34,057 nucleotides of DNA, taken from positions 1 to 34,057 of the forward strand of contig JANWVJ010000011.1 of the NCBI GenBank assembly GCA_025056895.1, given 5' to 3'. Positions 7,378 through 22,511 of this stretch are shown here, piece by piece. This DNA is from Thermoflexales bacterium (GTDB taxonomy: Bacteria > Chloroflexota > Anaerolineae > J036 > Brachytrichaceae). Under the pieces are notes generated by a model. The model was not told the origin of the DNA, did no database searches, and was given only the letters and a program-made list of their open reading frames with translations. Each line of letters starts with the position of its first letter. The stretch's first letter is position 1. Both the position numbers and the translations under genes were made by a program.

Positions 7378-7743
7378 TCACCGCACGGCGCGAGCAGAGT
7401 GCTGTTCATCGGTTACAAGCCGGTGCGCGGCCAAATCGTCGCGGCAAACACCCTTCATCGGCACGCCGGTACGCCAAGCCGCAGAGGCGATTGCATGCGC
7501 CACAACCGGTCCGGCCAGCAGCAGCAAGGCAATCAACAACAGTCCTCGGCTCCAGGCATAGGGCACGGCCAGGATGGCAGCGACCGTCAGTAACACGACG
7601 CCAAATGTGGACACCTTGCCGGCAGCATGTAGGCGCGCATACACATCAGGCAGGCGCAACAAGCCGATCATACCGATCATAGAGAAGACTGTGCCGACCA
7701 AAATCGCAAGCGCGGCAGCAGCGTACAAAAGTTCTTCGAGCAT
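7378..7743 (-). CDS. mrpG: Mrp antiporter subunit G (second set)
   Basis: Small membrane subunit of the Mrp/Mnh multisubunit Na+/H+ antiporter, 121 residues. It has three hydrophobic segments and the family signature RLPDVYARLHAAGKVSTFG, followed by a TAxxxGVPM-like element (SAAWRTGVPMKG). The frame can be extended upstream to 7842, but that would overlap most of the mrpF end. The ATG at 7743 gives the canonical N-terminus MLEELLYAAAALAILVG. It is the last Mrp subunit of the downstream complete set, with its stop touching the hydrolase gene. Confidence 0.92.
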   Translation of the reverse strand: MLEELLYAAAALAILVGTVFSMIGMIGLLRLPDVYARLHAAGKVSTFGVVLLTVAAILAVPYAWSRGLLLIALLLLAGPVVAHAIASAAWRTGVPMKGVCRDDLAAHRLVTDEQHSARAVR

Positions 7744-7759
7744 GCTAATTCTCCTGGCA

Positions 7760-8035
7760 CTAGAATATCTGCCGGCGGGCAATGTAGCGCGCCAGAGCAA
7801 TGGTGCTGATGAACGTGAGCGCTGCAAAACCCAGCGCCACATCGATGAATAGTTCGTTCTGACGGATCAACCCCATCAGCACAAACACGGCCAGCACCAG
7901 CGTGCCGATCACGTCGGCAGCCAGCAGGCGGTCGAGCACCGTTTCACCGCGCCAGACGCGCCAGACGGCCACCGAGATCAAACCGACATGAATGACCAGC
8001 GCAACAGCCAGGAGCACGCCGAACACTTCTTTCAT
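7760..8035 (-). CDS. mrpF: Mrp antiporter subunit F (second set)
   Basis: A 91-residue membrane protein with three hydrophobic segments. MrpF signatures are WRGETVLDRLLAADVIGTLV in the middle and FIDVALGFAALTFISTIAL near the end, with a basic C-terminus ARYIARRQIF. Its ATG overlaps the mrpE stop as ATGA, indicating translational coupling. The family also resembles cation/bile-acid transporter-like MnhF proteins, but context makes the assignment firm. Confidence 0.92.
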   Translation of the reverse strand: MKEVFGVLLAVALVIHVGLISVAVWRVWRGETVLDRLLAADVIGTLVLAVFVLMGLIRQNELFIDVALGFAALTFISTIALARYIARRQIF

Positions 8036-8514
8036 CGAAAAATGCCCTCCATCAAACGCCGGCGCGTGCGTTGGGCGGCTTCGGCGCTTTCAGCGCTGGC
8101 AACAACGTCCAGACAGTGGGTGTACAGGACGCCGTCCTCGCCGATTTCAACCACTTGCTCGCCGGGCGTGACGGTGATGGCATGGGCGTTGAGGGCGATG
8201 CCCAGCTCACTCTTCATCTCACTCTGGATGGCCAAAATGCCGGGGCGGATCGGCAACTTGGGATCAAGGACAATGCGCGCAACGCGAATGCCGTTGCGAA
8301 TAATGTCAACGGCCAGCCAGAGGGTATAGCGCGCCAGATTGAACAGCACCAGCGGCAAACGACGAATCGACAACAAATCGGGGGCTGGGCGCACGACCAA
8401 AGCGACCAGGACGCCGATGAGCAAGCCAAGCACAATGTTAGCCGGCTCGGCATTCTCGGTCAGCGCCAAAAACAACACCAGACAAATCAACACCAGGCGG
8501 AGATATGCCAACAT
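8032..8514 (-). CDS. mrpE: Mrp antiporter subunit E (only copy)
   Basis: A 160-residue MrpE/MnhE subunit. It has two N-terminal membrane segments, then the family block YTLWLAVDIIRNGIRVARIVL. This leads to the cytoplasmic domain with SELGIALNAHAITVTPGEQV and LYTHCLDV. GGAAGG lies shortly upstream of the ATG at 8514. It overlaps mrpF by four bases. This is the only mrpE in the window, since the upstream set has just 23 bases at the equivalent place. If both sets form complexes, either they share this subunit or one works without it. Confidence 0.93.
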   Translation of the reverse strand: MLAYLRLVLICLVLFLALTENAEPANIVLGLLIGVLVALVVRPAPDLLSIRRLPLVLFNLARYTLWLAVDIIRNGIRVARIVLDPKLPIRPGILAIQSEMKSELGIALNAHAITVTPGEQVVEIGEDGVLYTHCLDVVASAESAEAAQRTRRRLMEGIFR

Positions 8515-8562
8515 GTGCCTTCCTCCAACAGAATAAAAGAGCTAAATCAATGCGTTCAACGG

Positions 8563-10119
8563 TCACTTGAGTGTTGATTGCTCCGGCAGCAACACCGCAC
8601 GCGTGTAGTTAGCCGGCGCGCCGATCCATCCACTGACATGCTGCGACCAATCGGCCAGCGGCTGGGCCCACAAGCCGAGCACCAGACAGAGCAAGATCAA
8701 GCCGGCAGGGGCCAACAAGCTGTCGCCGCGTGGCTTGACCTTTTCCTCAGGCGATTTGGGCTGGAATGGCTCCCACCAGATCACCATCAGGGCACGGAAG
8801 ACGTATACGAATGTCAGGATGCTGGAGAAGCCGATCAGCGCCAACGGCAGCCATACGCCGAGCGAGGCGGCCATCTCGCCAGCTTGCACTGCCAGCACAC
8901 CGCTCTGAAACAGCATCAGTTTGCTGATGAAACCGTTAGTGGGCGGCATACCGGCCAGCGCCATGCCGCCCAGCAAGAACAACACGCCGCCAAGCGGCGC
9001 ATACTTGCCTACCCCTCGCACCACGCTGAAAGCAGCCGTCTTGATCGGGGCGCGGCTGGCCAAGTAGCCGCTCAGCATCAGCATGGCGCTTTTGATGAGC
9101 GCGTGGTTGAAGGTGAACAGCACAGCCGCTGCGATCGATAACGCCGCACCCCAGCCGATGCCGACGTAGATGAAACCGATTTGGGCCAGTGTGGAGTACG
9201 CGAACATGCGCTTGGCGTTGTGTGTGCCGATTGCGCCCAACCCACCGAAGACCACGCCGGCGATGCCGCTCACGATCAGCGCTCCGTTCAACCAGTCAAA
9301 TTGAGGGACGAGCAGCGTCGTCAGGCGCAGAAAGCCGTACACACCGATCTTGACAACGACCGAAGATAACATGGCCGAAACCGGCGTCGGCGAGGCCGTG
9401 TGAAAGTCGGGCTGCCAAAAATGGAAGGGCACAGCAGCACTTTTGATCATAAACGTGATGGCCAGAAAGACCACCGCAGCAGCCAACAACGGCCGGTTGG
9501 GATCGGCAGCGATGCGCTGGGCCAGATCGGCCATGTTGAGCGTGCCGTAGCTGACATACAGACTGCCGATGCCGAACAACAGGCAGAACGAGGCGAGGGT
9601 GCTGATTAGGAAGTACTTGAAAGCAGCTTCAGGGCCGTAGCGGTCATCGCTGATCGAGGTCAGAACTGCCCCCGAAATGACCACCAGCTCGATCATGACG
9701 AACAGATTGAAGATATCGCCGGTGAGCAAAGCGCCGCTCAGGCCGGCAGCCAGGGTCAGGAAAAGCGGGTAGAAGGTGTCATGATGAACGGCTTTGTCTT
9801 TTGCACCGAGAGCATACAGGAAACCGAACACGAATACCAACTGGGCCATAAAGGCGAAGGTGGACGATAGAGGATCGGCCACAAACGTGATGCCAAAAGG
9901 AGCAGGCCAAGCGCCGAGCTGAAGCACCAACGGCTGGCCAGCTTCGGCCACCTGCCACAACAGCCAGGCGCTGACCGCACACGCCGTCGCCATTGCGCCG
10001 AAAGCCCATGCAGCCTGCGCGTATGGATGGCGGCGCAAGAGCATAGCTACCGCCGCGCCGGTCAACGGAATGAGCGCCGGCAAGATGGCTAGGATCGAAT
10101 TGCTGGGTTGCTCGAACAT
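8563..10119 (-). CDS. mrpD: Mrp antiporter subunit D (second set)
   Basis: A 518-residue proton-translocating membrane subunit related to NuoL/M/N, with about 14 hydrophobic segments. The conserved TM5 glutamate is in FNLFVMIELVVISG (E144). The TM7 lysine is in FMIKSAAVPFHFWQPDFH (K226), followed by SAMLSSVVVKIGVYG. The N-terminal opening, SILAILPALIPLTGAAVAM, is typical. It is closely similar along its length to the MrpD of the upstream set (shared GTLNMADLA, FHFWQPDFHTA and NGFISKLMLFQSG blocks). It follows mrpC with a gap of about 36 bases. Confidence 0.95.
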   Translation of the reverse strand: MFEQPSNSILAILPALIPLTGAAVAMLLRRHPYAQAAWAFGAMATACAVSAWLLWQVAEAGQPLVLQLGAWPAPFGITFVADPLSSTFAFMAQLVFVFGFLYALGAKDKAVHHDTFYPLFLTLAAGLSGALLTGDIFNLFVMIELVVISGAVLTSISDDRYGPEAAFKYFLISTLASFCLLFGIGSLYVSYGTLNMADLAQRIAADPNRPLLAAAVVFLAITFMIKSAAVPFHFWQPDFHTASPTPVSAMLSSVVVKIGVYGFLRLTTLLVPQFDWLNGALIVSGIAGVVFGGLGAIGTHNAKRMFAYSTLAQIGFIYVGIGWGAALSIAAAVLFTFNHALIKSAMLMLSGYLASRAPIKTAAFSVVRGVGKYAPLGGVLFLLGGMALAGMPPTNGFISKLMLFQSGVLAVQAGEMAASLGVWLPLALIGFSSILTFVYVFRALMVIWWEPFQPKSPEEKVKPRGDSLLAPAGLILLCLVLGLWAQPLADWSQHVSGWIGAPANYTRAVLLPEQSTLK

Positions 10120-10155
10120 GACTTGTACCTGAATAGGGTGATATGGCGTCGGACG

Positions 10156-10488
10156 CTAATGGCTCAGACCGCGCACCTCATCACTGTCGCCGGTACGATA
10201 GCGCGAAGCGATCACGTATAGCAAGGCCAGCATCATCGAGAAGCCGCCCATGCTGATGACGATGGCCGTCAAAATCAAAGCTTGTGGCAACGCATCGCTC
10301 CGCTGGCCGACCGCTTTGGCATAGGCTTCAACCACGCCGTTGTATGCGCCAACCGACAAAAGGAACAGGTTGACCGCATTTGAAAGGATCACCAGGCCGA
10401 TGGCGATACGAATGACATTGCGGCGCAATAACTGGTACAGAGCGATGCCGAATAGCACGCCGATGGCTATAGCTCGCAGTAAGTCCAT
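10156..10488 (-). CDS. mrpC: Mrp antiporter subunit C (second set)
   Basis: A 110-residue NuoK-like subunit with three membrane segments. Marks are LYQLLRRNVIRIAIGLVILS, SNAVNLFLLSVGAYNG and SDALPQALILTAIVIS. The frame is open upstream to 10563, but only the ATG at 10488 gives the family N-terminus MDLLRAIAIGVLFG. It sits two bases after the mrpA stop (TAA-TC-ATG). The end, SDEVRGLSH, is nearly the same as in the other MrpC. Confidence 0.93.
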   Translation of the reverse strand: MDLLRAIAIGVLFGIALYQLLRRNVIRIAIGLVILSNAVNLFLLSVGAYNGVVEAYAKAVGQRSDALPQALILTAIVISMGGFSMMLALLYVIASRYRTGDSDEVRGLSH

Positions 10489-10490
10489 GA

Positions 10491-13400
10491 TTATTCTGCC
10501 TCTCCTTCTGGATGGCCCAACGCATCGATGATGAACAGGCTGGCGCCGAAAACCGCCAAGCAAATCGCCAGCTCGAACAGGAAAGACGTGCTGAAGTAAA
10601 CGCCCTCCGGCAACGGTAACCGCAACACAGCCCCAAAGTCAACCGGTGAGAAGAAAGCGCCGCCGAGCAGCATGGGGGCAGAGGCGCCGATCACGGCAAT
10701 CAACAAGCCCAGGCCGATTAATAAGCCGGGCCGTAAACCGCGCAAGCGGCGGCGCACACCGGCAAATCCAAACACGACATACCAAAAGCCAACGGCTAAG
10801 CTGAGTGTGACACCGGCGGTGAAGCCATCGCCCGGCTCGTGGTGGCCGTGGATGATCTGCACAGCAGCCAGCACAATCGCCAGCGGCATGGCCAGATAGG
10901 CCAGTGCATGAATAAAGGGCGAGGCGCGCTTGCCGTCAATGCCATACAAGGCGGGGGATACACGAAACAGTGCCTGCGAGGGCGCCGGCGCTTCTTCTTC
11001 GGGCTGGGCGCGCAAGGCCTCGCGGCGCGTCATGGCATAGCGCAACAGCGTAAACACACCCACGCCGGCCACGCTGAACACGCTGATCTCGATTAGCGTA
11101 TCGAAGCCGCGAAAATCGACCACCACCGCGCCGACGATGTCATCGGCGCCGGTGAGCGGCTTAGCGTTTTGCTCGAAGAAAGGCGTCACAACCGACTCAC
11201 GCGGACGAGACGCAAACGCATACAAACACAACGTGGTCACCACTGCGCCGCCGATCACCGCCAGAATCGTGTTGCGGAGCATACAGGCGCGATCGCGGTG
11301 ATTGAGCGCCTCGGCGCGCGCCAGTTGTGCAATGGGCAAATGGGACAGCGCCAGCACGAGGATCACAGTGGACAACAAGTCCACGACGACCTGCACCAGC
11401 GCCACATCCGGCGATGGCTCCAGAGCGATCAACACGGCCACGGCTAGGCCCGATGCGCTCAACGCCAAAATGGCCAGAAAATCTCGCCGGATGACAACAG
11501 ACACCAGCGCGGCAGCCACGGCCAAAATGAGACTGAAGGCGCGCAGGAAGCCCAGCGGATCGAGCAGATCGTCGAGCGGCGCAGCCGCTAAACGCGCGAA
11601 CGGCGGCGCACTCAAGAGTTGAGACAAGTTGCCGAACAGCGCCAGCAAGCCGAACAAAGCCATTAAGATGACTGTGAGATAGATGCGAATGCGTCCGCCC
11701 TGCGTGCGTGTGGCCCAACCGGCCAAGCGATCGATGGTATTCAACGTGCGCTCATAGAGGGCATTCATAGACAACGCCGGGCCGGCCACAGAGCGAATCG
11801 GGCTGCGCAGACGAAATACCACTACGCCCAGGCCGATCGCGAGGGCGCTTAGGAGAAGCGGTACATTCAGGCCGTGAAACAGGTCTAACGAGACTTTGAC
11901 CTTAACCCCATACGCCGCCGAAGCTGCAGAAGCCAACAAGTCGGTGAACACCTGGGGCTGAAAGACGGTGATCACTAGCGACAAGGCTGCCAACGCCGCC
12001 GGCGCGATCAGCATGCCCGCCGGCGGGTCCTGAGCAAGGAGCGTCTCCTTGAGGTGCGGACGGGCCGGCTTAGAGCGGTCAATGGTCTCAACATCTTCAG
12101 GGTCGTCACGGCCTTCGCCGGTGAGCGGCAAATCGACAACCGTTTTGAAAAAGCCGGCGCCGGGCGGGGTCACAAATGTGTCGAGCGCCAACGTGCCGGC
12201 CTGAGCGAGGATAAATGCCCCGCTCAGCACGGTGAGAGCGGGCAGGATCACCCGCATCATCGCCGGCAAGACCTCTTCGATCTCCGCTGCCAGTAAGGCT
12301 TCTTTGGCCAAAAAGCCGAACAGGGGCGGCAAGCCGGCCATCGATAACGCAGCGATACTGCACACGACAAACGTCAACGGCATGGCGCGCCAGATGCGAC
12401 CCAGCCGCCGCAAGTCGCGGGTGCCGGTTGTGTGATCGACAATCCCGACGATCATAAACAGCGCGCCTTTGTATAAGGCATGAGCCAGAACCCCGATGGT
12501 TAGAGCCTTAAAGGCCTCCGGCGCCTCTTCACCGATCAACATGACGAGCACGCCGAGCTGGCTGATAGTCGAATAGGCCAACACGGCTTTGAGATCAACT
12601 TGCCGCAAGCCGAGAATGGCGCCTGTCAACATGGTCGTCGCGCCGGCGACAGCCAACAGCCAGAACCACAATTCGGTATTGCCCAGCGCGGGATGCAGGC
12701 GGGCCAAAATGTACACGCCGGCCTTGACCATCGTCGCGGAGTGCAAATAGGCCGAAGCCGGAGTAGGTGCGCTCATTGCAGTGGGCAACCAAAAATGGAA
12801 AGGCGCCTGAGCGCTTTTGGTGAAGGCGCCGAATGCAATCAACGCCAACAACACCGGGTACCAAGGGCTGGCGCGCAACACATCGCGACTGCTTAGGATG
12901 GTCGCCCAGTCCGAGCCGCCGCCAATAGCTGCAACGAATAAGAGACCGGCCAGTAGGGCGATACCACCCGCGCCGGTGACAAACAATGCCTTGAACGCTC
13001 CTTTGCGCGCTTCTGCATCCTTGGTCTTGTAAGCGATCAACAGAAAGGATGTGACACTAGTGCCTTCCCAAAACACAAACAGCGTGATCACATCGCCGGC
13101 CAGCACCAGCCCCAGCATAGACGCCATGAACAACAGGATGTACAGGAAAAAGCGCGCATCCGAAGTTGTCGATCCCTGAGATGCGAGGGATGCATGGGCA
13201 TCGCCGGCAGCCGGCGCATGACTTAAAGCAGGGTCAAAATAATAGCCGGCATAGATCAACACCAGCGCGCCGATTCCGGTGACGATGAGACCGAATAGAA
13301 CGCTGAGGCCGTCGAGATAGAGGCTGGCATTCAAACCGAGCGCCGGCAGCCAGGCAAATTGCCACGTGATCACGTGGCCTTCAAACAGGTGGGGCAATTG

Positions 13401-13556
13401 AGCGGCGAGATAGATGAACGCAACCAACGGCGCACCGGACAACAACCAGCCCAACGCCCGGCTCGACAGCCTGGTGGTAGCAGGGAGCACTGTTGGCAAC
13501 ACAGCAGCCAGCGCGCCTACTGTACACGCAAGGAGCGGAAATGCCAGCGTAAGCAT
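10491..13556 (-). CDS. mrpA: Mrp antiporter subunit A fused to MrpB (second set)
   Basis: A giant membrane protein of about 1,020 residues. The N-terminal two thirds is the NuoL-like antiporter domain, with LYLDGLSVLFG, the TM5 glutamate in FVFWEGTSVTSF (about residue 164), the TM7 lysine in FGAFTKSAQAPFHFWLP (about 247) and another lysine in HSATMVKAGVY (about 278). A middle NuoJ-like/MrpA C-domain follows (VVDLLSTVILVLAL, then DFRGFDTLIEISVFSVAGVG). The last 150 residues are an MrpB domain (IHGHHEPGDGFTAGVTLS, then VYFSTSFLFELAI). No separate mrpB exists, so this is an A-B fusion. A TTG at 13565 directly after the mrpG stop could add three residues; the ATG at 13556 is used. Neither has a clear Shine-Dalgarno. 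Confidence 0.93.
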   Translation of the reverse strand: MLTLAFPLLACTVGALAAVLPTVLPATTRLSSRALGWLLSGAPLVAFIYLAAQLPHLFEGHVITWQFAWLPALGLNASLYLDGLSVLFGLIVTGIGALVLIYAGYYFDPALSHAPAAGDAHASLASQGSTTSDARFFLYILLFMASMLGLVLAGDVITLFVFWEGTSVTSFLLIAYKTKDAEARKGAFKALFVTGAGGIALLAGLLFVAAIGGGSDWATILSSRDVLRASPWYPVLLALIAFGAFTKSAQAPFHFWLPTAMSAPTPASAYLHSATMVKAGVYILARLHPALGNTELWFWLLAVAGATTMLTGAILGLRQVDLKAVLAYSTISQLGVLVMLIGEEAPEAFKALTIGVLAHALYKGALFMIVGIVDHTTGTRDLRRLGRIWRAMPLTFVVCSIAALSMAGLPPLFGFLAKEALLAAEIEEVLPAMMRVILPALTVLSGAFILAQAGTLALDTFVTPPGAGFFKTVVDLPLTGEGRDDPEDVETIDRSKPARPHLKETLLAQDPPAGMLIAPAALAALSLVITVFQPQVFTDLLASAASAAYGVKVKVSLDLFHGLNVPLLLSALAIGLGVVVFRLRSPIRSVAGPALSMNALYERTLNTIDRLAGWATRTQGGRIRIYLTVILMALFGLLALFGNLSQLLSAPPFARLAAAPLDDLLDPLGFLRAFSLILAVAAALVSVVIRRDFLAILALSASGLAVAVLIALEPSPDVALVQVVVDLLSTVILVLALSHLPIAQLARAEALNHRDRACMLRNTILAVIGGAVVTTLCLYAFASRPRESVVTPFFEQNAKPLTGADDIVGAVVVDFRGFDTLIEISVFSVAGVGVFTLLRYAMTRREALRAQPEEEAPAPSQALFRVSPALYGIDGKRASPFIHALAYLAMPLAIVLAAVQIIHGHHEPGDGFTAGVTLSLAVGFWYVVFGFAGVRRRLRGLRPGLLIGLGLLIAVIGASAPMLLGGAFFSPVDFGAVLRLPLPEGVYFSTSFLFELAICLAVFGASLFIIDALGHPEGEAE

Positions 13557-13565
13557 GAAGGCCAA

Positions 13566-13955
13566 CTATACAGGCAGGTCGGAAGAGGGATCAGAGGGTT
13601 GAGCAAATGGCAAAGATCGACCACGCCGGCGGGCCAGATCGTCGCGCATGGCATTTGTCATTGGTACGCCGGTGCGATAGGCCGCTGAAGCCAGCGCATG
13701 AGAGACCGCCGGGCCAGCAATCACCAACAGCGCAATCAACACCAGCGCCTTGCCCAAGCCCAATGAGCCAACCGCAACGGCGGCCAGAGCAAGGAGAGCT
13801 GCACCAAAGACACTCACCTTGCCGGCTGCGTGCAGGCGCGTATAAACATCCGGCAGGCGAACAAAGCCCAAGACGCCAATCAGAGAGAAGAAGCTGCCAA
13901 CCACAATGGCGAGGAGCGCAATGACTTGCAAGACAGGATCGAGCGTTGCTTCCAT
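13566..13955 (-). CDS. mrpG: Mrp antiporter subunit G (first set)
   Basis: A 129-residue MrpG with three hydrophobic segments and the signature FVRLPDVYTRLHAAGKVSVFG, followed by ASAAYRTGVPMTNAM. It lies directly upstream of the second mrpA, whose first possible start codon follows this stop without a gap. It is slightly longer at the C-terminus (SDPSSDLPV) than the second copy and clearly paralogous to it. Confidence 0.92.
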   Translation of the reverse strand: MEATLDPVLQVIALLAIVVGSFFSLIGVLGFVRLPDVYTRLHAAGKVSVFGAALLALAAVAVGSLGLGKALVLIALLVIAGPAVSHALASAAYRTGVPMTNAMRDDLARRRGRSLPFAQPSDPSSDLPV

Positions 13956-13965
13956 ATCACCATTC

Positions 13966-14241
13966 CTAAAACATGCGCTGGTCGGCCAGGTACTTTGCCA
14001 GCGCCAGCGTGCCGATAAAGCTTAAAGCGGCCACAATCAAGGCAACGTCCATGTAGATGTCTTGGCCGGTGAACATGGCAATCAGCACCAACACGCACAA
14101 AATCAGGACGCTAGCCAGCTCCACACCGAGCAAGCGATCAACCGGACTTTGGCCGCGCACAACGCGCCACAAAGGAATCAGGATCAAGAGCACATGCCCG
14201 ATCAGGGCAAGTGCGATTGCGTTGTTTAAGATATTTTCCAT
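13966..14241 (-). CDS. mrpF: Mrp antiporter subunit F (first set)
   Basis: A 91-residue MrpF, the same length as the second copy, with WRVVRGQSPVDRLLGVELAS and YMDVALIVAALSFIGTLALA, ending AKYLADQRMF. It follows mrpD with only 23 bases between stop and start, where an mrpE gene would normally lie. Spacing to mrpG is 10 bases. Confidence 0.92.
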   Translation of the reverse strand: MENILNNAIALALIGHVLLILIPLWRVVRGQSPVDRLLGVELASVLILCVLVLIAMFTGQDIYMDVALIVAALSFIGTLALAKYLADQRMF

Positions 14242-14264
14242 GGCTCACCCGCTTATACTCTTCG

Positions 14265-15755
14265 TCAGCCGCCCAACACAACGCGCACATACTGTTCCGG
14301 CACGCTGAGCCAGGCGACGGTGTCATACGCCAAGCGCAGCAACGGTTCGGCCCACAGACCCAGCGCCAGGCTAAGGGCAATCAAGATGGCCGGCGCAATT
14401 AATCGATCGCCATAGGGTTTGGTCTTGGCGCCGGCCGGCATGGGAACCCACCAGATGCGTTGAAAGGCGCGCATCACGTACACGAGAGTGACGATACCGG
14501 CCAGGCCGATCACCGCCAGCGGCAAGTAGGCTTGGGACTCAACACCGCTTTGAAACAACATCAACTTGCCGATGAAGCCGTTCAAGGGCGGAATGCCGGC
14601 CAACCCCATGCCGCCGAGCAAGAACAACACACCGGCCAGGGGCATCTTCTTGCCGACTCCGGTGATCACGTCAAAAGCGGCGGTCTTGACCGGAGCGCGG
14701 CTGGCAACGCTGCCGGCCAGCATGAGCATGGCAGCTTTCAACAGGCTGTGATTAAACGCATACACAATCGCGGCTGCCAGCGCCAAGGGTGTGCCCCAGC
14801 CGATGGCAACGAGAATGAAGCCGAGCTGGCCCAAGGTGGAATAGGCCAACATGCGTTTGGCATCATAGGTTCCCACGGCGCCCAACCCTCCGAACCACAC
14901 ACCCACCGCACCGGCAACCACAAGCACTGGGCGGATCAACTCGGCCTGTCCGGGAAAGAGCAACGTGGTCATACGGAAAAACCCATAAATGCCGAGCTTA
15001 ACCACAACCGAAGACAGCACGGCGTGAACGGGGGTTGGCGCAGCGGTGTGAAAATCAGGTTGCCAGAAGTGAAAGGGCATGACGGCGCCTTTGACCATGA
15101 AGAAGACCATCAAGAAGGCCATCGCCGGCAACACCAAGGGGGGAGACGGATCGGCTGCAATTCGGCGGGCTAGATCGGCCATGTTGAGTGTGCCGTAGGA
15201 GACATATAGGCTGCCACACGCCAGCAACAGCGCAATCGAAGCCACCAAGCTGATATAGAAATATTTGTAAGCAGCCTCGGCGCCAAAACGATCGTCAGAC
15301 ATGGCGGTGAGGGCTGCGCCGGCGAACACCAACAACTCGGCGAAGACGAACAGATTAAACAAGTCGCCGGTCAGCATCGCGCCGGTCAGTCCGGTTGCTA
15401 ACAAGAGGAAGAGCGGATAGAACATCGGATATTGTGCACACTGGTCGCGGCAACCCAGCGCATACAAGAACCCACCCGCCAGAACGAGCTGGCACATCAC
15501 CGCCATCAGCGCAGACAAGACATCGGCCACCAATGAGATGCCGAACGGCGCCGGCCAGCCACCCAACTGGAAAACAAGGGGCCTACCCTGCCCCCACACA
15601 TCAGCCAGTAGCAGAACGGCAAACACCAGCGAGGTGAGCATCGAGCCGAACGACCAGGCAGCCTGCACTTCATGGCGGCGACGCAGGGCAATAGCTATCA
15701 CCGCTGCGGTTAAGGGCACCAGGATCGGCAATACAACCAGGAACTCGTTTGTCAT
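14265..15755 (-). CDS. mrpD: Mrp antiporter subunit D (first set)
   Basis: A 496-residue NuoL/M/N-like subunit with about 14 membrane segments. The TM5 glutamate is E140 in LFNLFVFAELLVFAG and the TM7 lysine is K222 in FFMVKGAVMPFHFWQP, so both key ion-path residues are intact. The copy is not a dead duplicate by these tests. Its start follows the mrpC stop by two bases (TAA-CG-ATG). The C-terminus differs from the second copy (VPEQYVRVVLGG), as expected for an old duplication. Confidence 0.95.
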   Translation of the reverse strand: MTNEFLVVLPILVPLTAAVIAIALRRRHEVQAAWSFGSMLTSLVFAVLLLADVWGQGRPLVFQLGGWPAPFGISLVADVLSALMAVMCQLVLAGGFLYALGCRDQCAQYPMFYPLFLLLATGLTGAMLTGDLFNLFVFAELLVFAGAALTAMSDDRFGAEAAYKYFYISLVASIALLLACGSLYVSYGTLNMADLARRIAADPSPPLVLPAMAFLMVFFMVKGAVMPFHFWQPDFHTAAPTPVHAVLSSVVVKLGIYGFFRMTTLLFPGQAELIRPVLVVAGAVGVWFGGLGAVGTYDAKRMLAYSTLGQLGFILVAIGWGTPLALAAAIVYAFNHSLLKAAMLMLAGSVASRAPVKTAAFDVITGVGKKMPLAGVLFLLGGMGLAGIPPLNGFIGKLMLFQSGVESQAYLPLAVIGLAGIVTLVYVMRAFQRIWWVPMPAGAKTKPYGDRLIAPAILIALSLALGLWAEPLLRLAYDTVAWLSVPEQYVRVVLGG

Positions 15756-15757
15756 CG

Positions 15758-16105
15758 TTAGTGTCTCAGCCCCTTGACTTCATCGGAATCGCTGGTTTTA
15801 TAGCGAAGCGACAAGACATACACCAAAGCCAGAACAACGGCGAAAGCGCCCATGCCGATCACAATGGCTGTCAGGATCAACGCCTGGGGCAGCGCATCGC
15901 TGGGTTGGCGGGCCGTCTGGCCGGCCAGATTGGCATACGCGGCCACCTCACCGCGATAGGCGCCGCTGGCCAACAAAAACAAATTAATCGCGTTTGAGAC
16001 AATCGCTACACCCATGGCCGAGCGAATGAGATTGCGCCGCAATAACTGAAAGACACCGATGGCAAATAGCGCACTGATCGCCAGCGCGGTGAACAGTTCG
16101 ATCAT
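15758..16105 (-). CDS. mrpC: Mrp antiporter subunit C (first set)
   Basis: A 115-residue NuoK-like subunit with three membrane segments: VFQLLRRNLIRSAMGVAIVS, SNAINLFLLASGAYRGEV and SDALPQALILTAIVIG. The ATG overlaps the mrpA stop as ATGA, so the pair is translationally coupled. The C-terminus SDEVKGLRH matches the second copy's SDEVRGLSH. Confidence 0.93.
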   Translation of the reverse strand: MIELFTALAISALFAIGVFQLLRRNLIRSAMGVAIVSNAINLFLLASGAYRGEVAAYANLAGQTARQPSDALPQALILTAIVIGMGAFAVVLALVYVLSLRYKTSDSDEVKGLRH

Positions 16106-19095
16106 GTTTTGGTCTCCTCAGGCAAGGTGACTACGCCCTGTTCTCTCAGGGCGGCTATTTCGCTCATTTGTTGTTCGGTCTCGCGGTCGGTGTCACGCGG
16201 ATGGCCAAGCGTGTCGAGCATCAGCACTGCGCTGCCCACCACCGTCAGGGCAATTGCCAGCTCATACAGCGTGGCTGTGCTGAAATAGACGCCGGCCGGC
16301 AGCCAGCGACTAACGCCGATTAACTTGCCGAAATCAACCGGCGAGAAGAAAGTGCCGTTGATGAGGGCAGCAAGGGTGGCGGACAACAAGGCCAGACCCA
16401 GGCCGGCAGCGATCAAGGCAGCCGGGCGCAGCCAGGGCAAGCGACACTTAGTCTCCTCGTAACCATAGACGACATACCAGGTTGCCACAGCCAAGCTGAC
16501 GATCACGCCGGCTGTGAACCCGTCGCCGGGTCGATCATGGCCGAGCAAGATATGCGAGGCAGCCAGCACAAACGAGAACGGCAGAATCAATCGCGCGACC
16601 AAGCGCACCAGGGCCGACGAACGGGGGTTGCCGATCCCGCGAAAGGGGAGCATGGTTGGATCAGGCTGTGGCGCCGGCTCATCGCGGTCGCCTGCTTTGC
16701 GCGAGGCATAGCGCAACAAGGTGTAAACCGACAAGCCGGCGGCGGCGAAGACAGCAATTTCAACCAGTGTGTCGAAGCCACGAAAATCGATCACGATTGC
16801 GCCCACGATGTCATTTGCAGCGGTGAGGGGCTTGGCATTTTGTTCGAAGAAGGGCGTGATTTGGGACTCTCGCGGGCGCGAGAGAAGCGCCGTGGAGACG
16901 ATTGCAAACATGACCGCGCCGCTGCCCAACGCAATCAGCACATCACGCAGCAAGCCGGGGCGTGACTGGCGGTAGGTGAACTCGGCAGCGCGCGCGCGTT
17001 GCTCGCGCGGCAGGCGGGTGAGCACCAGCACCAGCACGACCAGAGTCAGTGTTTCCACTACCACTTGCACCAAGGCAATATCGGGGGCGGGTTCCAAAAT
17101 CATCAGCACGGCAATGCTCAGGCCGGAAACACCCAACGCAAGAATGGCGAACAGATCGCTGCGCAAGAAGACGCTAACCAGCGCAGCGAGGGTGACGACT
17201 ACCAAGGCAATAATCCGCAGTAGAGACTGAGCATCCGGCAGTAAGGTGACGGAAAGTGCCAAAGGCGGCAAGGCCAGCCGGCCTATGCCGATCAACATAG
17301 CGCCTAGGCTGATCAACATGATTGCCAGATACAATCGCAGGCGACCGCTTTGAACGCGCGTGACCAACCAGGCCATACCATCGATCAGCCGCAACGCTCC
17401 CTCGTAGAGCACACCGAGGCTGAGACGGCCGGCAATGTGATCGAGCGCAGGACGAACGCGCTGACGCACGGCCAACAAGGCGACGCCTAGACTGACGGCC
17501 ACGATACTCAGCAGCAGTGGGACATTGATGCCGGTCCACAATGCCAACGACACCTTGACTTTATCGCCCCAGGCGGCTGTGGCAGCAGCAGCGAGCAAGG
17601 TGGCCAGTCCCTCCGGTTCGGGCAACACGCCAACTGCCAACGAGGCCAAAGCCGGTATGGCCGGCGCGAGCCACATCGGCCAGGGGGCTTCATGCGGGTG
17701 AAGATCAGAGCGAGACTGGCCCAGAAAGCCATCGAGCACGACCAAGCCGGCCTGGGCCAAAACCAACGCGCCGGCAATCACCGCCGCAGCCGGGAAAATC
17801 ACTTCAACGATCGGCGGCACGGCAGGATGGGTCGCAGTAGCCAGCAACGTCTCTTTGGCCAAAAAGCCGAAGAGAGGGGGCAAACCGGCCATCGACAAGC
17901 CGGCTATCAGCGCAACGGCAAAGGTAAAGGGCATGGCGCGCCGTAATCCGCCTAGCTCGCGTAGGTCGCGCGTGCCGGCTTCGTGATCGATGATGCCGGT
18001 GACAAGAAAGAGCGCGCTTTTGTATAGGGCATGAGCCAGGATGCTCACCACCAAGGCCTTGAAAGCGATCTCGGTGTCTTGGCCGATCAACATCACCAAC
18101 ACGCCCAACTGGCTGACGGTGGAGTAGGCCAACAGCGCCTTGAGATCATGCTGCTTGAAGCCGACAAACGCCCCGATCAACATGGTCGCTCCGCCGATCA
18201 GGCTGAACAGCCAGAACCACAGATCGGTTTGACCGAGGGCAGGATTCACTCGGGCCAACAGATACACACCCGCTTTGACCATGGTGGCCGAGTGCAAATA
18301 CGCCGAAGCGGGGGCGGGAGCACTCATTGCGCCGGGCAACCAGAAGTGAGCCGGCGCCTGCGCACTCTTGGTCAGAGCGCCCAGCGCAATCAACGCCAGC
18401 ATGACGGGATACAGTTCACTGGCGCGCAGAAGGTCGCCGCTGCGCAGAATCACGTCAAACTGTGTGCTGCCGCTGAGAGCAGCCACGAAGACGAGACCGG
18501 CTAACAACGCTACACCACCTCCGCCGGTGATGAATAAGGCACGAAACGCGCCGCGTCGCGCTGCCTCGTCCTTGCTCTTGTAAGCCACCAGAAGAAAAGA
18601 GGTGATGCTGGTGCCTTCCCAGAAGACAAAGAGGGTGATGACATCGCCTGCCAGCACCAAGCCCAGCATCGACATCATGAACAGCAGGATGTAGAAGAAA
18701 AAGCGTGCGTCGGAATGGGCGGAGAAATCAGACGAGTCGCCTTGGGCAGGATGGGCCGAGTTGGCTTTGAAATAGTATCCGGCATAGGTCACCACTAGTA
18801 CGCCGATGCCGCTGACCAACAGCCCAAACAGCACGCTTAGTCCATCGAGACGCAGCGTGGCTTGCACCCCGAGCGTTGGCATCCAGTCGAGCGACCAGAT
18901 CAGGGTCTGGCCGGCCAGGACGTTTGGCGATTCGACCAACAGGAGAACAAAAGCGACCAAGGGCGCAATCGCCAACAACCAGCCAAGCAGGGGCGTGGAA
19001 ACGCGGCGACCAACCGGCAAGACCGTCAACAGGCCGGCAGCAAGCGCGCCAATGGCGCAGGCAATTAAGGGCAGAACGATTGATTGACTATACAT
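16102..19095 (-). CDS. mrpA: Mrp antiporter subunit A fused to MrpB (first set)
   Basis: About 997 residues, with the same layout as the second copy. The NuoL-like domain carries RLDGLSVLFG, the TM5 glutamate in FVFWEGTSITSF (about residue 160), the TM7 lysine in GALTKSAQAPAHFWLPG (about 243) and KAGVY (about 274). The MrpA C-domain follows with DFRGFDTLVEIAVFAAAG. The C-terminal MrpB domain carries LLGHDRPGDGFTAGVIVSLA and VYFSTATLYELAIAL. The frame opens at a TTG at 19122, but the ATG at 19095 has GGAG about seven bases upstream and is chosen. A long cytoplasmic tail ends in TLPEETKT. The 65-base gap to the preceding antiporter gene holds an imperfect hairpin (CCAGT...ACTGG). Confidence 0.94.
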   Translation of the reverse strand: MYSQSIVLPLIACAIGALAAGLLTVLPVGRRVSTPLLGWLLAIAPLVAFVLLLVESPNVLAGQTLIWSLDWMPTLGVQATLRLDGLSVLFGLLVSGIGVLVVTYAGYYFKANSAHPAQGDSSDFSAHSDARFFFYILLFMMSMLGLVLAGDVITLFVFWEGTSITSFLLVAYKSKDEAARRGAFRALFITGGGGVALLAGLVFVAALSGSTQFDVILRSGDLLRASELYPVMLALIALGALTKSAQAPAHFWLPGAMSAPAPASAYLHSATMVKAGVYLLARVNPALGQTDLWFWLFSLIGGATMLIGAFVGFKQHDLKALLAYSTVSQLGVLVMLIGQDTEIAFKALVVSILAHALYKSALFLVTGIIDHEAGTRDLRELGGLRRAMPFTFAVALIAGLSMAGLPPLFGFLAKETLLATATHPAVPPIVEVIFPAAAVIAGALVLAQAGLVVLDGFLGQSRSDLHPHEAPWPMWLAPAIPALASLAVGVLPEPEGLATLLAAAATAAWGDKVKVSLALWTGINVPLLLSIVAVSLGVALLAVRQRVRPALDHIAGRLSLGVLYEGALRLIDGMAWLVTRVQSGRLRLYLAIMLISLGAMLIGIGRLALPPLALSVTLLPDAQSLLRIIALVVVTLAALVSVFLRSDLFAILALGVSGLSIAVLMILEPAPDIALVQVVVETLTLVVLVLVLTRLPREQRARAAEFTYRQSRPGLLRDVLIALGSGAVMFAIVSTALLSRPRESQITPFFEQNAKPLTAANDIVGAIVIDFRGFDTLVEIAVFAAAGLSVYTLLRYASRKAGDRDEPAPQPDPTMLPFRGIGNPRSSALVRLVARLILPFSFVLAASHILLGHDRPGDGFTAGVIVSLAVATWYVVYGYEETKCRLPWLRPAALIAAGLGLALLSATLAALINGTFFSPVDFGKLIGVSRWLPAGVYFSTATLYELAIALTVVGSAVLMLDTLGHPRDTDRETEQQMSEIAALREQGVVTLPEETKT

Positions 19096-19160
19096 GCGAA
19101 CTCCAACCAGTTTGTTCAACAACGACTGGTCTGCTCCACGGCCTGGGGGAGAGAACTGAC

Positions 19161-20249
19161 CTATGCGCGTCGCAATGTGCGCAGATGTCTCAACACGGTC
19201 ACTGCTAGGGTCAGGGCAGTGAGCGGTAGCGCAAAGAATAGCATGGCGCTGCTGTACATGGGCAACAGCGCGTGCTCAGTTGCATCGAAAATCAAGTATA
19301 GCGTGTAGGCCACGTAATAGCTGAGAAAGACCAACCCTTCCCAGCGGGCAATCGTGTAGCCGGTGAAGAAGATCGGCAAACAAGCAAATGCAACAACTAA
19401 CATCACCGGCATATCAAACGCAAGCAGCGCAGGCTCAACCGAAACGCCATTCGGAGCAACGATTGCGGTTAAGCCAAGCACGGACAACAGGTTGAAGATG
19501 TTGCTGCCAACCACGTTTCCCACTGCGATGTCGCGCTCGCCGCGCACGCTGGCCATCACCGACGTTGCTACTTCCGGGAGCGACGTGCCTCCGGCGATGA
19601 TGGTGAGACCGATGACAACCTCATCCACGCCTAGCGCACGGGCGACCACTACCGCGCCATCCACCAGCCAGCGCGAGCCGATGACCAGCATCACCAAGCC
19701 CACTACAACAAAGACGAGATTGAGCGCAATGCCGCGCAAGCCACCGGCAGGAGGCCGGAATTCGTACTCGTATTCCTCGCGCACAGCAGCATTCGTCTCT
19801 TTACGGCTTTGAATGATCAAGAAGGTAGTGTAAGCAATCAGCCCGCCAAACAAGATCACGCCTTCAAGCCGGCTCACACTCTCATCCAGGGCAAACAAAA
19901 AGGTCAACACCGATACAGCTATCATCAATGGCACGTCCAGGCGCACCAACTGCTGAGAGACGATGAGCGGCGCGACAACCGCCGACAACCCCAGAATCAG
20001 TAGGACATTGAAGATGTTGCTGCCGACGACGTTGCCCATGGCGATGTCGGGCTGACCGGCAAGTGCGGAGAACACACTCACGGCCAGTTCTGGGCTGCTG
20101 GTGCCAAAGGCAACGACGGTCAGACCGATAACCAGAGGAGAAATACCGATAGCGGCTGCAAGGCGAGAAGCGCCACGCACCAGCGCCTCGGCGCCGGCGA
20201 TCAATCCAACCAAACCCAGCACAAACAAGAAGAGAGTCGTCCAGTCCAT
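19161..20249 (-). CDS. CaCA-family Na+/Ca2+-type (or Mn2+) antiporter, second of tandem pair
   Basis: A 362-residue inner-membrane cation antiporter of the CaCA superfamily (YrbG/NCX type). Both alpha repeats are clear. Alpha-1 has GTSSPELAVS (T50, S51, E54) and GNVVGSNIFN (S77, N81). Alpha-2 has GGTSLPEVATS (E226) and GNVVGSNIFN (N253). By position these match the ion-binding residues of the archaeal NCX_Mj structure, except that its fourth central residue, an Asp as I recall it, is Asn here. The central loop (RKETNAAVREEYEYEF) is acidic and cytoplasmic. The protein should use Na+ entry to expel a divalent cation. The Mn2+ riboswitch at the head of the transcript makes Mn2+ a serious candidate besides Ca2+. 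It starts 21 bases after its paralogue. Confidence 0.92.
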   Translation of the reverse strand: MDWTTLFLFVLGLVGLIAGAEALVRGASRLAAAIGISPLVIGLTVVAFGTSSPELAVSVFSALAGQPDIAMGNVVGSNIFNVLLILGLSAVVAPLIVSQQLVRLDVPLMIAVSVLTFLFALDESVSRLEGVILFGGLIAYTTFLIIQSRKETNAAVREEYEYEFRPPAGGLRGIALNLVFVVVGLVMLVIGSRWLVDGAVVVARALGVDEVVIGLTIIAGGTSLPEVATSVMASVRGERDIAVGNVVGSNIFNLLSVLGLTAIVAPNGVSVEPALLAFDMPVMLVVAFACLPIFFTGYTIARWEGLVFLSYYVAYTLYLIFDATEHALLPMYSSAMLFFALPLTALTLAVTVLRHLRTLRRA

Positions 20250-20270: not shown

Positions 20271-21461
20271 TCAACTATATGATTTATCTTGCTCAGCACT
20301 ACCGGACGGAGCTGGATGAGGCGTTGTCTGCGCCAATTGATCAGCCCCCTCAGCTCTGTCGGATACACTTCGGGTGTCGCGAATGGCGCGCCGCGCACTG
20401 CGCCAGGTCACTACCGCCAGCGTGATAACCGTTAAGGGAGCGGCGAAATACAAAATGACATCAGATAGCACACGCAACGAGTCACTGCGCATGGCATCCA
20501 AAATCAGATAGGCCGTGTAAGCGGCGTAGTATCCCAGAAACAGCGCGCCTTCCCAACGGGCGATGCGATAGCCGGTGAAAAAGATAGGTAGACACGCCAC
20601 CATCGTCACGACCATCACCGGCAAATCGAACTGCAGAACGGATTGAGGCACCGCGATGCCTTGCGGCGCAACGATGCCGGCTGCGCCGAGTACTGCCAAC
20701 AAGTTGAACAGGTTACTGCCGACGATATTGCCGACGGCAATGTCGCGCTCGCCGCGCAGGCCGGCAATCACCGTTGTGACAATTTCGGGCAGGGAAGTGC
20801 CGATTGAGACCACCGTTAAGCCGATAACCACTTTCCCGACATGTAGAGCGACAGCCAAATTCACCGCTGCCTCTACTAGCCAAGCCGAGCCGGCGGCGAG
20901 CGCAATCAGGCCGGCCACGATCAGTAATGTATTGACCAGAAGGCTGCGCCAGGTCAACCGACCACGTCCGGCGTACTCCTGAGCATATTCCGCTTCAACT
21001 TGGCGGCTTTCACGTCTGCTTTGGATGACGGCAACGACCACATAGCCAACAATGCCGGCAAACAACACGACACCCTCAAGTCGCATGATCAGACGATCCA
21101 TTGCAAACACACATACGACTAACCCAACAGCGATCATGAGCGGAACATCTACGCGCACCATCCGCTGCGCCACAACCAGCGGCGAAATGAGCGACGACAA
21201 ACCCAAAATAAGCAACACGTTAAGGATGCAACTACCGACCACGTTACCGAGTGCAATGTCTGCTTGACCGCTTAAGGCGGCCTCAACACTGACGGCCAGT
21301 TCTGGTGAACTGGTGCCGAAAGCCACCACAGTCAGACCGATCACCAGCGGCGATACACCCAGCACAGCAGCCAAACGTGAAGCGCCGCGAACCAGGGACT
21401 CTCCACCAGCGATCAACAGCGCCAGGCCGGCCGCAAACTGCACGAAGATCATCGGCCCCAT
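20271..21461 (-). CDS. CaCA-family Na+/Ca2+-type (or Mn2+) antiporter, first of tandem pair
   Basis: A 396-residue paralogue of the next gene, with identical spacing of the two alpha repeats: GTSSPELAVS (T50, S51, E54), GNVVGSCILN (S77, N81), GTSLPEIVTT (E226) and GNIVGSNLFN (N253). It differs from the sister protein in having Cys instead of Asn at 78 in alpha-1, next to the ion-binding Ser, and in a longer charged C-terminal tail (from about residue 360). It is the first gene behind the yybP-ykoY riboswitch, with AAGGAG eight bases before the ATG at 21461. Expected role: sodium-driven export of a divalent cation. The riboswitch argues for Mn2+; the transported ion itself cannot be read from sequence. 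Confidence 0.92.
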   Translation of the reverse strand: MGPMIFVQFAAGLALLIAGGESLVRGASRLAAVLGVSPLVIGLTVVAFGTSSPELAVSVEAALSGQADIALGNVVGSCILNVLLILGLSSLISPLVVAQRMVRVDVPLMIAVGLVVCVFAMDRLIMRLEGVVLFAGIVGYVVVAVIQSRRESRQVEAEYAQEYAGRGRLTWRSLLVNTLLIVAGLIALAAGSAWLVEAAVNLAVALHVGKVVIGLTVVSIGTSLPEIVTTVIAGLRGERDIAVGNIVGSNLFNLLAVLGAAGIVAPQGIAVPQSVLQFDLPVMVVTMVACLPIFFTGYRIARWEGALFLGYYAAYTAYLILDAMRSDSLRVLSDVILYFAAPLTVITLAVVTWRSARRAIRDTRSVSDRAEGADQLAQTTPHPAPSGSAEQDKSYS

Positions 21462-21534
21462 TTGAATTGCTCCTTACGCCGCAAACTCAGTGTGCCGCGG
21501 CGCTATCGCAACGATAGATCGCCGACCTGGGAGT

Positions 21535-21569
21535 AAAAAAAGACATCGCAAGCCAGGTGGCTTGCGATG
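21535..21569 (-). terminator. Riboswitch-controlled intrinsic terminator
   Basis: On the minus strand an 11-base-pair perfect stem, CATCGCAAGCC paired with GGCTTGCGATG around a four-base ACCT loop, is followed directly by TCTTTTTTT. It lies between the aptamer and the first antiporter gene. The left arm contains CGCAAGCC, which is also able to pair with the aptamer's 5' strand, so termination and aptamer closure compete. Confidence 0.93.
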
Positions 21570-21670
21570 GTCTTGCCGATCATTGCTGGTGTACCAACCG
21601 GACGCAGATTGCGCCGTACTGACGATTGGCAGCCCTGCAGTGCGCAGGCGGCTACTCCCCAACGCAAGCC
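21559..21670 (-). promoter_or_regulatory. yybP-ykoY (Mn2+) riboswitch aptamer
   Basis: The minus-strand leader of the antiporter gene carries the yybP-ykoY hallmark GGGGAGTAGC (21660-21651). It also has a CGTCAGTACGG segment typical of the middle of the motif and the closing GGCAAGACC (21577-21569). The outer helix P1 is visible as GGCTTGCG (21670-21663) pairing over eight bases with CGCAAGCC (21566-21559). That second strand is also the left arm of the terminator, so ligand-stabilised P1 should prevent termination, making an ON switch. The family (RF00080) is known to sense Mn2+ and to control metal exporters. The motif match is by eye, but the sequence and architecture agree well. Confidence 0.9.
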
Positions 21671-21671
21671 A

Positions 21672-21700
21672 TATATAACAAAACGGATTGCGGCTGTCAA
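21672..21700 (-). promoter_or_regulatory. Candidate promoter of the riboswitch-antiporter transcript
   Basis: TTGACA (21700-21695) and TATATA (21677-21672) with exactly 17 bases between them lie just upstream of the riboswitch. The -35 box is perfect. One tension remains: a start seven bases after the -10 box would fall inside the 5' strand of P1 (21670-21663) and shorten that helix. Either initiation is at the near end of the range, or P1 is shorter than the maximal pairing, or another promoter is used. Confidence 0.55.
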
Positions 21701-21740: not shown

Positions 21741-22511
21741 TCATGAGGCACGTCTTTGGCGGGCGATCTCAAACAAGATCACGCCACAGGCGACCGCCAC
21801 ATTCAATGACTCCACTCGATTGGCCAGCGGTATTCGCACGGCGCCGCTGGCCATATCGCGCGCTTCAGAAGAGACCCCTTCCGCTTCACCGCCCAAGATG
21901 AGTGCGCTGGGCCGGCGCCAATCCATAGCATCGTAATCGTGCGCGCCGGCGGCATCGGCTGCCCACACAGGGCGACCAGCACACAGGGTACGCATGTCCG
22001 GCCAATCACACTGCCGGGCAAGGATGCGCGCATGAGCGCCCATCGCCCCACGCACCACTTTGGGGTTATACAAGTCTACACAACCGGGCGACAACAACAC
22101 GTGACGACAGTCGGCCCCGGCGGCGACCCGCAGACATGCGCCCAAATTGCCCGGTTCTTTGAGCGCATCTAGGATCAACAGGATAGGCGCTTGTTCAAAG
22201 AGATGCAGGGAGGGGGTCTTGGGAATGTGAAAGACGGCCAGGACGCCGGGAGGCGTCACTTCAGTGGAAAGACCGCGCATGGTGTGATCGGAAACCAGTA
22301 AGCGATCAACCTGGGGATATCTGTCACACCAAGCATGTGCCGTGGGTCTATCAGCTACGATGGCATACGCAATCTGCATGCCGGCGGCAGCCAGATCATC
22401 CACAAGTCGCGTGCCTTCGGCAACGAATAAGCCTTCCGCTTCGCGCGCGTCGCGGCGCTGTTGCAGGCGACGGGCTAGTTTCACACGTGGGTTTTGAGGC
22501 GATACGATCAC
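21741..22511 (-). CDS. SpoU/TrmH-family RNA 2'-O-methyltransferase
   Basis: A 256-residue SPOUT-class methyltransferase that transfers a methyl group from S-adenosylmethionine to a ribose 2'-OH in rRNA or tRNA. The N-terminal substrate-binding domain begins NPRVKLARRLQQRRDAREAE and has LFVAEGTRLVDD. The catalytic domain has the three SpoU motifs: LDALKEPGNLGACLR (N122, with the Arg at 128), ILGGEAEGVS near 205-214, and VRIPLANRVESLNVAVACG near 225-243. It resembles RlmB/TsnR-type 23S rRNA guanosine methyltransferases, but the target base is not readable. The start is a GTG at 22511, only about 45 bases past the rplT terminator; placement next to rplT is common for this family. Expression probably relies on terminator read-through. 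Confidence 0.9.
   Translation of the reverse strand: MIVSPQNPRVKLARRLQQRRDAREAEGLFVAEGTRLVDDLAAAGMQIAYAIVADRPTAHAWCDRYPQVDRLLVSDHTMRGLSTEVTPPGVLAVFHIPKTPSLHLFEQAPILLILDALKEPGNLGACLRVAAGADCRHVLLSPGCVDLYNPKVVRGAMGAHARILARQCDWPDMRTLCAGRPVWAADAAGAHDYDAMDWRRPSALILGGEAEGVSSEARDMASGAVRIPLANRVESLNVAVACGVILFEIARQRRAS

Follow-up and report, generated by a model that had tools for sequence, protein, structure and literature searches.

A putative Mn2+ riboswitch of the yybP-ykoY type ahead of a CaCA-Mrp operon in Chloroflexota

The locus and its aptamer

The minus strand of the window, that is, the whole stretch of 34,057 nucleotides that was analysed, carries at 21665-21535 a yybP-ykoY-type aptamer fused to an intrinsic terminator, which stands 5' of two CaCA antiporter genes and two Mrp clusters. 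The element is placed between an rRNA methyltransferase-like gene (end 21741) and the first CaCA gene (start 21461), is oriented towards the latter, and is separated from it by a stretch containing the sequence of a ribosome-binding site, AAGGAG (21470-21475). The two CaCA genes (20271-21461 and 19161-20249), which like all features described below lie on the minus strand, encode calcium/sodium-type antiporters scoring 249.8 and 293.6 bits, respectively, with TIGR00367 (cutoff 179.65), the first also matching PF01699. Gaps of about 40 nt at most separate the CaCA genes and Mrp cluster 1 (13566-19122; A 16102-19122, C 15758-16105, D 14265-15755, F 13966-14241, G 13566-13955). Mrp cluster 2 comes next (7378-13565; A 10491-13565, C with its stop at 10156, D 8563-10119, E 8032-8514, F 7760-8035, G within 7378-7842), and the spacing throughout this gene series is of a few tens of bases. 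The subunit set A to G is found in full, the MnhB domain lying inside the A protein and E occurring in cluster 2 only.

All the motifs and strings named in the original prediction are present on the minus strand: GGCTTGCG at 21670-21663, GGGGAGTAGC at 21660-21651, GGCAAGACC at 21577-21569, CGCAAGCC at 21566-21559, and a second copy of GGCTTGCG at 21554-21547 followed by seven U at 21541-21535. The aptamer that they delimit has the layout of its class. The 5' side of L1, GGGGAGTA, together with the GCC strand of P1.2 (21650-21660), and the facing GGC strand of P1.2 with the L1 3' side AAGACC (21569-21577), are almost invariant in 81 loci; this includes the L1 motif GGGGAGUAG at 21660-21652 and its AAGACC counterpart at 21574-21569. 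Between them lie the P2 hairpin CCTGC-GCACT-GCAGG (21634-21648), with double changes in all five pairs, and the P3 arm (21594-21629), in which P3.1 (CCAATC/GGTTGG) and the P3.2 hairpin show double changes in 4/6 and 4/4 pairs, respectively. The L3 sequence GTCAGTA occupies 21623-21617, its GTCA being found in 80 of the 81 loci, and A21620 is the presumed metal-binding residue, probably equivalent to A41/A48 of the crystal structures. A four-way junction of P1.2, P2, P3 and P4 can thus be drawn, in which P1.2, P2, P3.1 and P3.2 are backed by covariation; block analysis of the P4 region (21578-21593) found it weak in the window copy but a clear hairpin in most relatives. The GGGGAGUAG and AAGACC sides of L1, the GUCA of L3 and the four-way junction are the same as in the yybP-ykoY riboswitches (RF00080) of L. 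lactis and X. oryzae.

The check proposed with the original prediction, a significant RF00080 score, had a negative outcome at the Rfam cutoff. With relaxed limits, the element reached 20.9 bits (E 5e-4 in 311 bases), where the gathering cutoff is 45, and the search at gathering threshold gave no Rfam match in the window. Likewise, RF00080 had no match in the whole genome at its E-value limit, and none of the 298 genomes of the class contains a copy at or above its cutoff, even though many weaker copies were seen; these have in common the motifs GGGGAGTAGC, GTCANNA and GGC[AG]AGACC, with one hairpin between the first two and another between the last two, and a terminator after them. Since no genome of the class reaches the cutoff, the RF00080 score is too blunt a test for this group. 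RF00080 is nevertheless the only family matched among 4,227 with relaxed limits (E <= 10), and a Na+ or other metal riboswitch from Rfam was discarded for lack of any covariance-model match. A lineage covariance model, R1, built from 18 sequences of this group with the window copy among them, gives the window element 79 bits (E 5e-21). At the level of the class, 87/396 genomes have a match to this model, at that of the phylum 72/301, and the same fold occurs in dozens of genomes outside its 18 sequences. The library model RF00080 misses the lineage: the standard Rfam cutoff detects none of these riboswitches in a whole Chloroflexota class where they are common.

Covariation points in the same direction. 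In an alignment of 84 distinct sequences, which was fitted to model R1 and is hence biased towards the model structure, 96.0% of the paired cells pair, compared to 73.4% in shuffles, double changes are found in 426 cells compared to 117, and 18 of the 21 pairs show them. A MAFFT alignment predating the model gave the same outcome with smaller numbers (86.5% versus 70.0% of cells pairing, 70 versus 27 double-change cells), and sliding the partners by one column destroyed the signal in both alignments. Together with the 79 bits, this confirms an aptamer far beyond chance. It also contradicts the idea that the element is no more than an intrinsic terminator serving the upstream rRNA methyltransferase gene, with an accidental likeness to an aptamer. 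A strong terminator does lie at 21574-21535, 3' of the gene ending at 21741; however, a promoter separates the two, and about 100 nt of aptamer are kept with compensatory changes in many genera and ahead of many different genes, so that we give this explanation practically no weight.

Terminator, promoter and switch helix

The terminator (21535-21574) has the form AAGACCATCGCAAGCC-ACCT-GGCTTGCGATGTCTT followed by the seven U at 21541-21535, with a predicted stability of -22.5 kcal/mol. Its 5' arm takes the 3' strand of P1.1, CC-A-U-CGC (21564-21570), which, according to the pairing profile and to folding, is common to both structures; the other P1.1 strand is GCG-U-U-GG (21659-21665), seen in the folding of the short transcript and with co-varying -1 and GG/CC pairs. 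Alternative folds contain either the P1 helix or the terminator, never both, which bears out the earlier proposal of mutually exclusive helices competing for CGCAAGCC. The transcriptional ON-switch architecture that had been put forward is likewise upheld as a prediction: the terminator would take the 3' strand of the aptamer, and a terminator-like hairpin taking AGACC and followed by a U-run is found at 68/81 loci. For a transcript starting at 21665, and leaving aside ligand and tertiary contacts, the terminator state is computed at -58.0 and the P1.1 state at -45.2 kcal/mol. Termination (OFF) would thus be the default, and the ligand would have to tip the balance.

Where the transcript begins decides what the switch helix can be. 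A -35 box with the exact consensus TTGACA (21695-21700) lies 17 nt before a -10 box TATATA (21672-21677), a placement that is the same in many relatives. Indeed, a sigma-70 promoter match of at least 9/12 occurs at 52/81 loci (mean of 4.6 in shuffled sequence), and at 41/81 the best promoter has 10-12 nt between the end of its -10 box and GGGGAG. In the window this distance is 11 nt and the -10 box ends one base short of the GGCTTGCG strand; transcription is therefore expected to start near 21665, inside GGCTTGCG, of which only GCG would probably become RNA. By promoter geometry, the pairing profile and a chance test, the GGCTT part of this 'closing strand' (21663-21670) is probably untranscribed.

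The original prediction had drawn GGCTTGCG as the closing strand of the aptamer, repeated in the 3' arm of the terminator. The repeat exists, and both copies can pair with CGCAAGCC; the 8-bp helix GGCUUGCG/CGCAAGCC does not hold as drawn. If transcription started 5' of 21670, P1 would be the 11-pair helix GGCUUGCG-U-UGG, in which each of the eight bases has its partner in CGCAAGCC, and a transcript from 21670 does fold with it. We consider this longer helix improbable on several grounds. The -10 box, ending at 21672, is too close to 21670 for transcription to begin there. In the nearest relative, G001, GACCCGCG stands in place of GGCTTGCG, so that two of the eight pairs are lost, while the terminator arm of this relative is still GGCTTGCG; what it keeps is the GCG beside UUGG, common to the window and this relative. 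Across the phylum loci, pairing of the upstream and downstream strands is clearly above chance only from -1 to about -4 and fades past 4-5 nt (position -4/-5), although weak additional signals appear at -5 and -7 in a register with one bulged base. The five outermost bases, GGCTT (-6 to -10), pair with the downstream strand at 1/81 loci, the window itself, where 0.99 is expected when partners are dealt anew. Finally, the 11-pair helix is computed to be about 10 kcal/mol more stable; a helix of such strength would make a poor switch, tending to stay locked ON. Promoter position, nearest relative and chance test led us to reject the GGCTTGCG repeat as an evolved 8-bp helix: the eight-base repeat is real and probably for the most part a coincidence in promoter DNA.

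The functional switch helix is rather predicted to resemble that of L. lactis in being short and weak, and the promoter, welded to the aptamer, would set its length. RNA synthesis would begin a few bases ahead of GGGGAG, and the RNA would fold into the four-way junction of P1.2, P2, P3 and P4. In the presence of Mn2+, docking of L1 with L3 would hold the short P1.1, GCGUUGG with CCAUCGC, and so keep the strand AAGACCAUCGC from the terminator; the polymerase could then read into the CaCA antiporter genes and, if the whole cluster is co-transcribed, probably into the Mrp genes. When Mn2+ is absent, AAGACCAUCGC would go into the strong terminator hairpin as its 5' arm, and RNA synthesis would stop. 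This competition with a terminator has been demonstrated for the riboswitches of L. lactis (PMC11087558) and X. oryzae (PMC6754395), and P1.1 has been described as inherently weak (PMC6754395). The window element is like these two in setting a weak P1.1 against an intrinsic terminator, and would like them be ON with ligand. It is unlike them in scoring below the Rfam cutoff, in the promoter that abuts the aptamer, in its weak P4 and in the Mrp genes of its operon.

Gene partners and candidate ligand

The switch belongs to a well-studied riboswitch class and is of a known kind. Among the established partners of the yybP-ykoY class are P-type ATPases, TerC and MntP. The first gene 3' of the riboswitch encodes a P-type ATPase at 30 of 82 loci, TerC at 26, CaCA at 16, an M50 peptidase at three and other proteins at seven; UPF0016 (three loci) and MntP (one locus) were recognised downstream from their sequences. 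The association of the class with Mn2+ transport genes is thus found again here, through P-type ATPase, TerC and CaCA as well as UPF0016 and MntP, and control of UPF0016 by a yybP-ykoY riboswitch is documented (PMC7380456). The presence of relatives ahead of P-type ATPases, TerC, UPF0016 and MntP points to Mn2+. Moreover, the copies associated with CaCA do not differ in L1 and L3 from those ahead of the other gene groups counted, which makes Mn2+ the best guess for the ligand of the window element.

Since the CaCA genes of the window score as calcium/sodium antiporters, another metal would be possible from the sequence alone. An aptamer of this class responding in the CaCA-Mrp operon to Ca2+, Na+ or pH would fit the annotation of the operon genes for Na+, Ca2+ and H+, and in E. 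coli the mntP riboswitch, a member of the class, is reported to be switched on by alkalinisation (PMC9603457). Against this stand the L1 and L3 shared with copies ahead of TerC and of P-type ATPases, including a P-type ATPase copy in the genome of the window itself, and the fact that no Na+ riboswitch family was matched. The Na+-I (DUF1646) riboswitch, which controls Na+ transport genes, finds no counterpart in the window either by sequence or by structure. In B. pertussis, a Mn2+ riboswitch of the class was shown ahead of BP3410, a CaCA protein exporting Mn2+, and this gene was affected by Mn2+ and not by calcium (PMC8546581). We therefore hold a different ligand to be very unlikely. The assignment to the Mn2+ (yybP-ykoY) class made in the original prediction is supported by the lineage-model score, covariation, motifs and gene context, with Mn2+ itself as the probable ligand. 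As a whole, the element is best explained as a Mn2+-sensing yybP-ykoY-type riboswitch that would act as a transcriptional ON switch, a reading to which we assign a probability of about 0.9.

A second copy in the genome of the window lies ahead of a P-type ATPase gene (G000:C33:17508-17613; L080 5009-5114). It has no clear U-run terminator and may for this reason have a different mode of action. Some of the partners are unusual for the class, their names coming from reading of the sequences: the M50 (site-2-type) peptidase at L006, L082 and L090, DedA-like proteins at L099, L102 and L103, and an HtpX-like peptidase at L097. At L116, TerC and CaCA are each preceded by a riboswitch copy of their own, the two copies (1760-1868 and 2343-2456) being divergently oriented.

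The CaCA-Mrp operon

The order riboswitch, CaCA, MrpA on the same strand was found at 16/16 loci in two Chloroflexota families. These loci were picked solely for riboswitch plus CaCA and comprise the window, 11 others of its family (one of which, G016, has a weak riboswitch match of 26.5 bits) and four from another family, which does not belong to the class. Among 80 CaCA relatives from many phyla, a riboswitch stands next to CaCA in four only, all from Chloroflexota and all with Mrp next; L202, a weak match of 18.6 bits several kb away, was left out of this count. In the genome of the window, no CaCA genes or Mrp clusters were found beyond those of the operon, the other MrpA-like matches being distant and on other contigs. 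The congener G002 (L217, G002:C53) keeps the CaCA-Mrp genes with no riboswitch upstream, and in G017 the region 5' of CaCA (L218) has retained the 3' arm of the terminator with a broken GGGGAGTAG motif, and looks like a decayed riboswitch remnant. These two cases suggest that the switch is an attachable controller.

A class riboswitch directly 5' of a CaCA antiporter gene is shared by the window and by B. pertussis BP3410 (PMC8546581). According to that paper, BP3410 has weak CaCA Pfam matches (E 4e-13 and 2e-8); the window proteins, by contrast, match TIGR00367 strongly. Mrp genes, present in the window operon, receive no mention in the passages of that paper that were consulted, and among open papers we found none tying the yybP-ykoY class to Mrp. 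The riboswitch-CaCA-Mrp operon may be the new part of the finding.

The simplest reading of this operon would be that CaCA exports Mn2+ in exchange for Na+ and that Mrp restores the Na+ gradient. The broader proposal, that a Mn2+ riboswitch governs an entire sodium circuit in two Chloroflexota families, with CaCA as the Mn2+/Na+ exporter and Mrp pumping Na+ out, is put forward tentatively, and we would not yet bet on it. If it is true, Mn2+ turns on the exporter and its energy supply together. Alternatively, Mrp could serve pH balance under Mn2+ stress. The riboswitch would mark the CaCA proteins of these bacteria as likely Mn2+ exporters and would link Mrp antiporters to Mn2+ homeostasis. In the first conserved repeat, CaCA 1 (20271-21461) reads GSCILN instead of the GSNIFN of the other aligned proteins, and its ion choice may consequently differ from that of CaCA 2.
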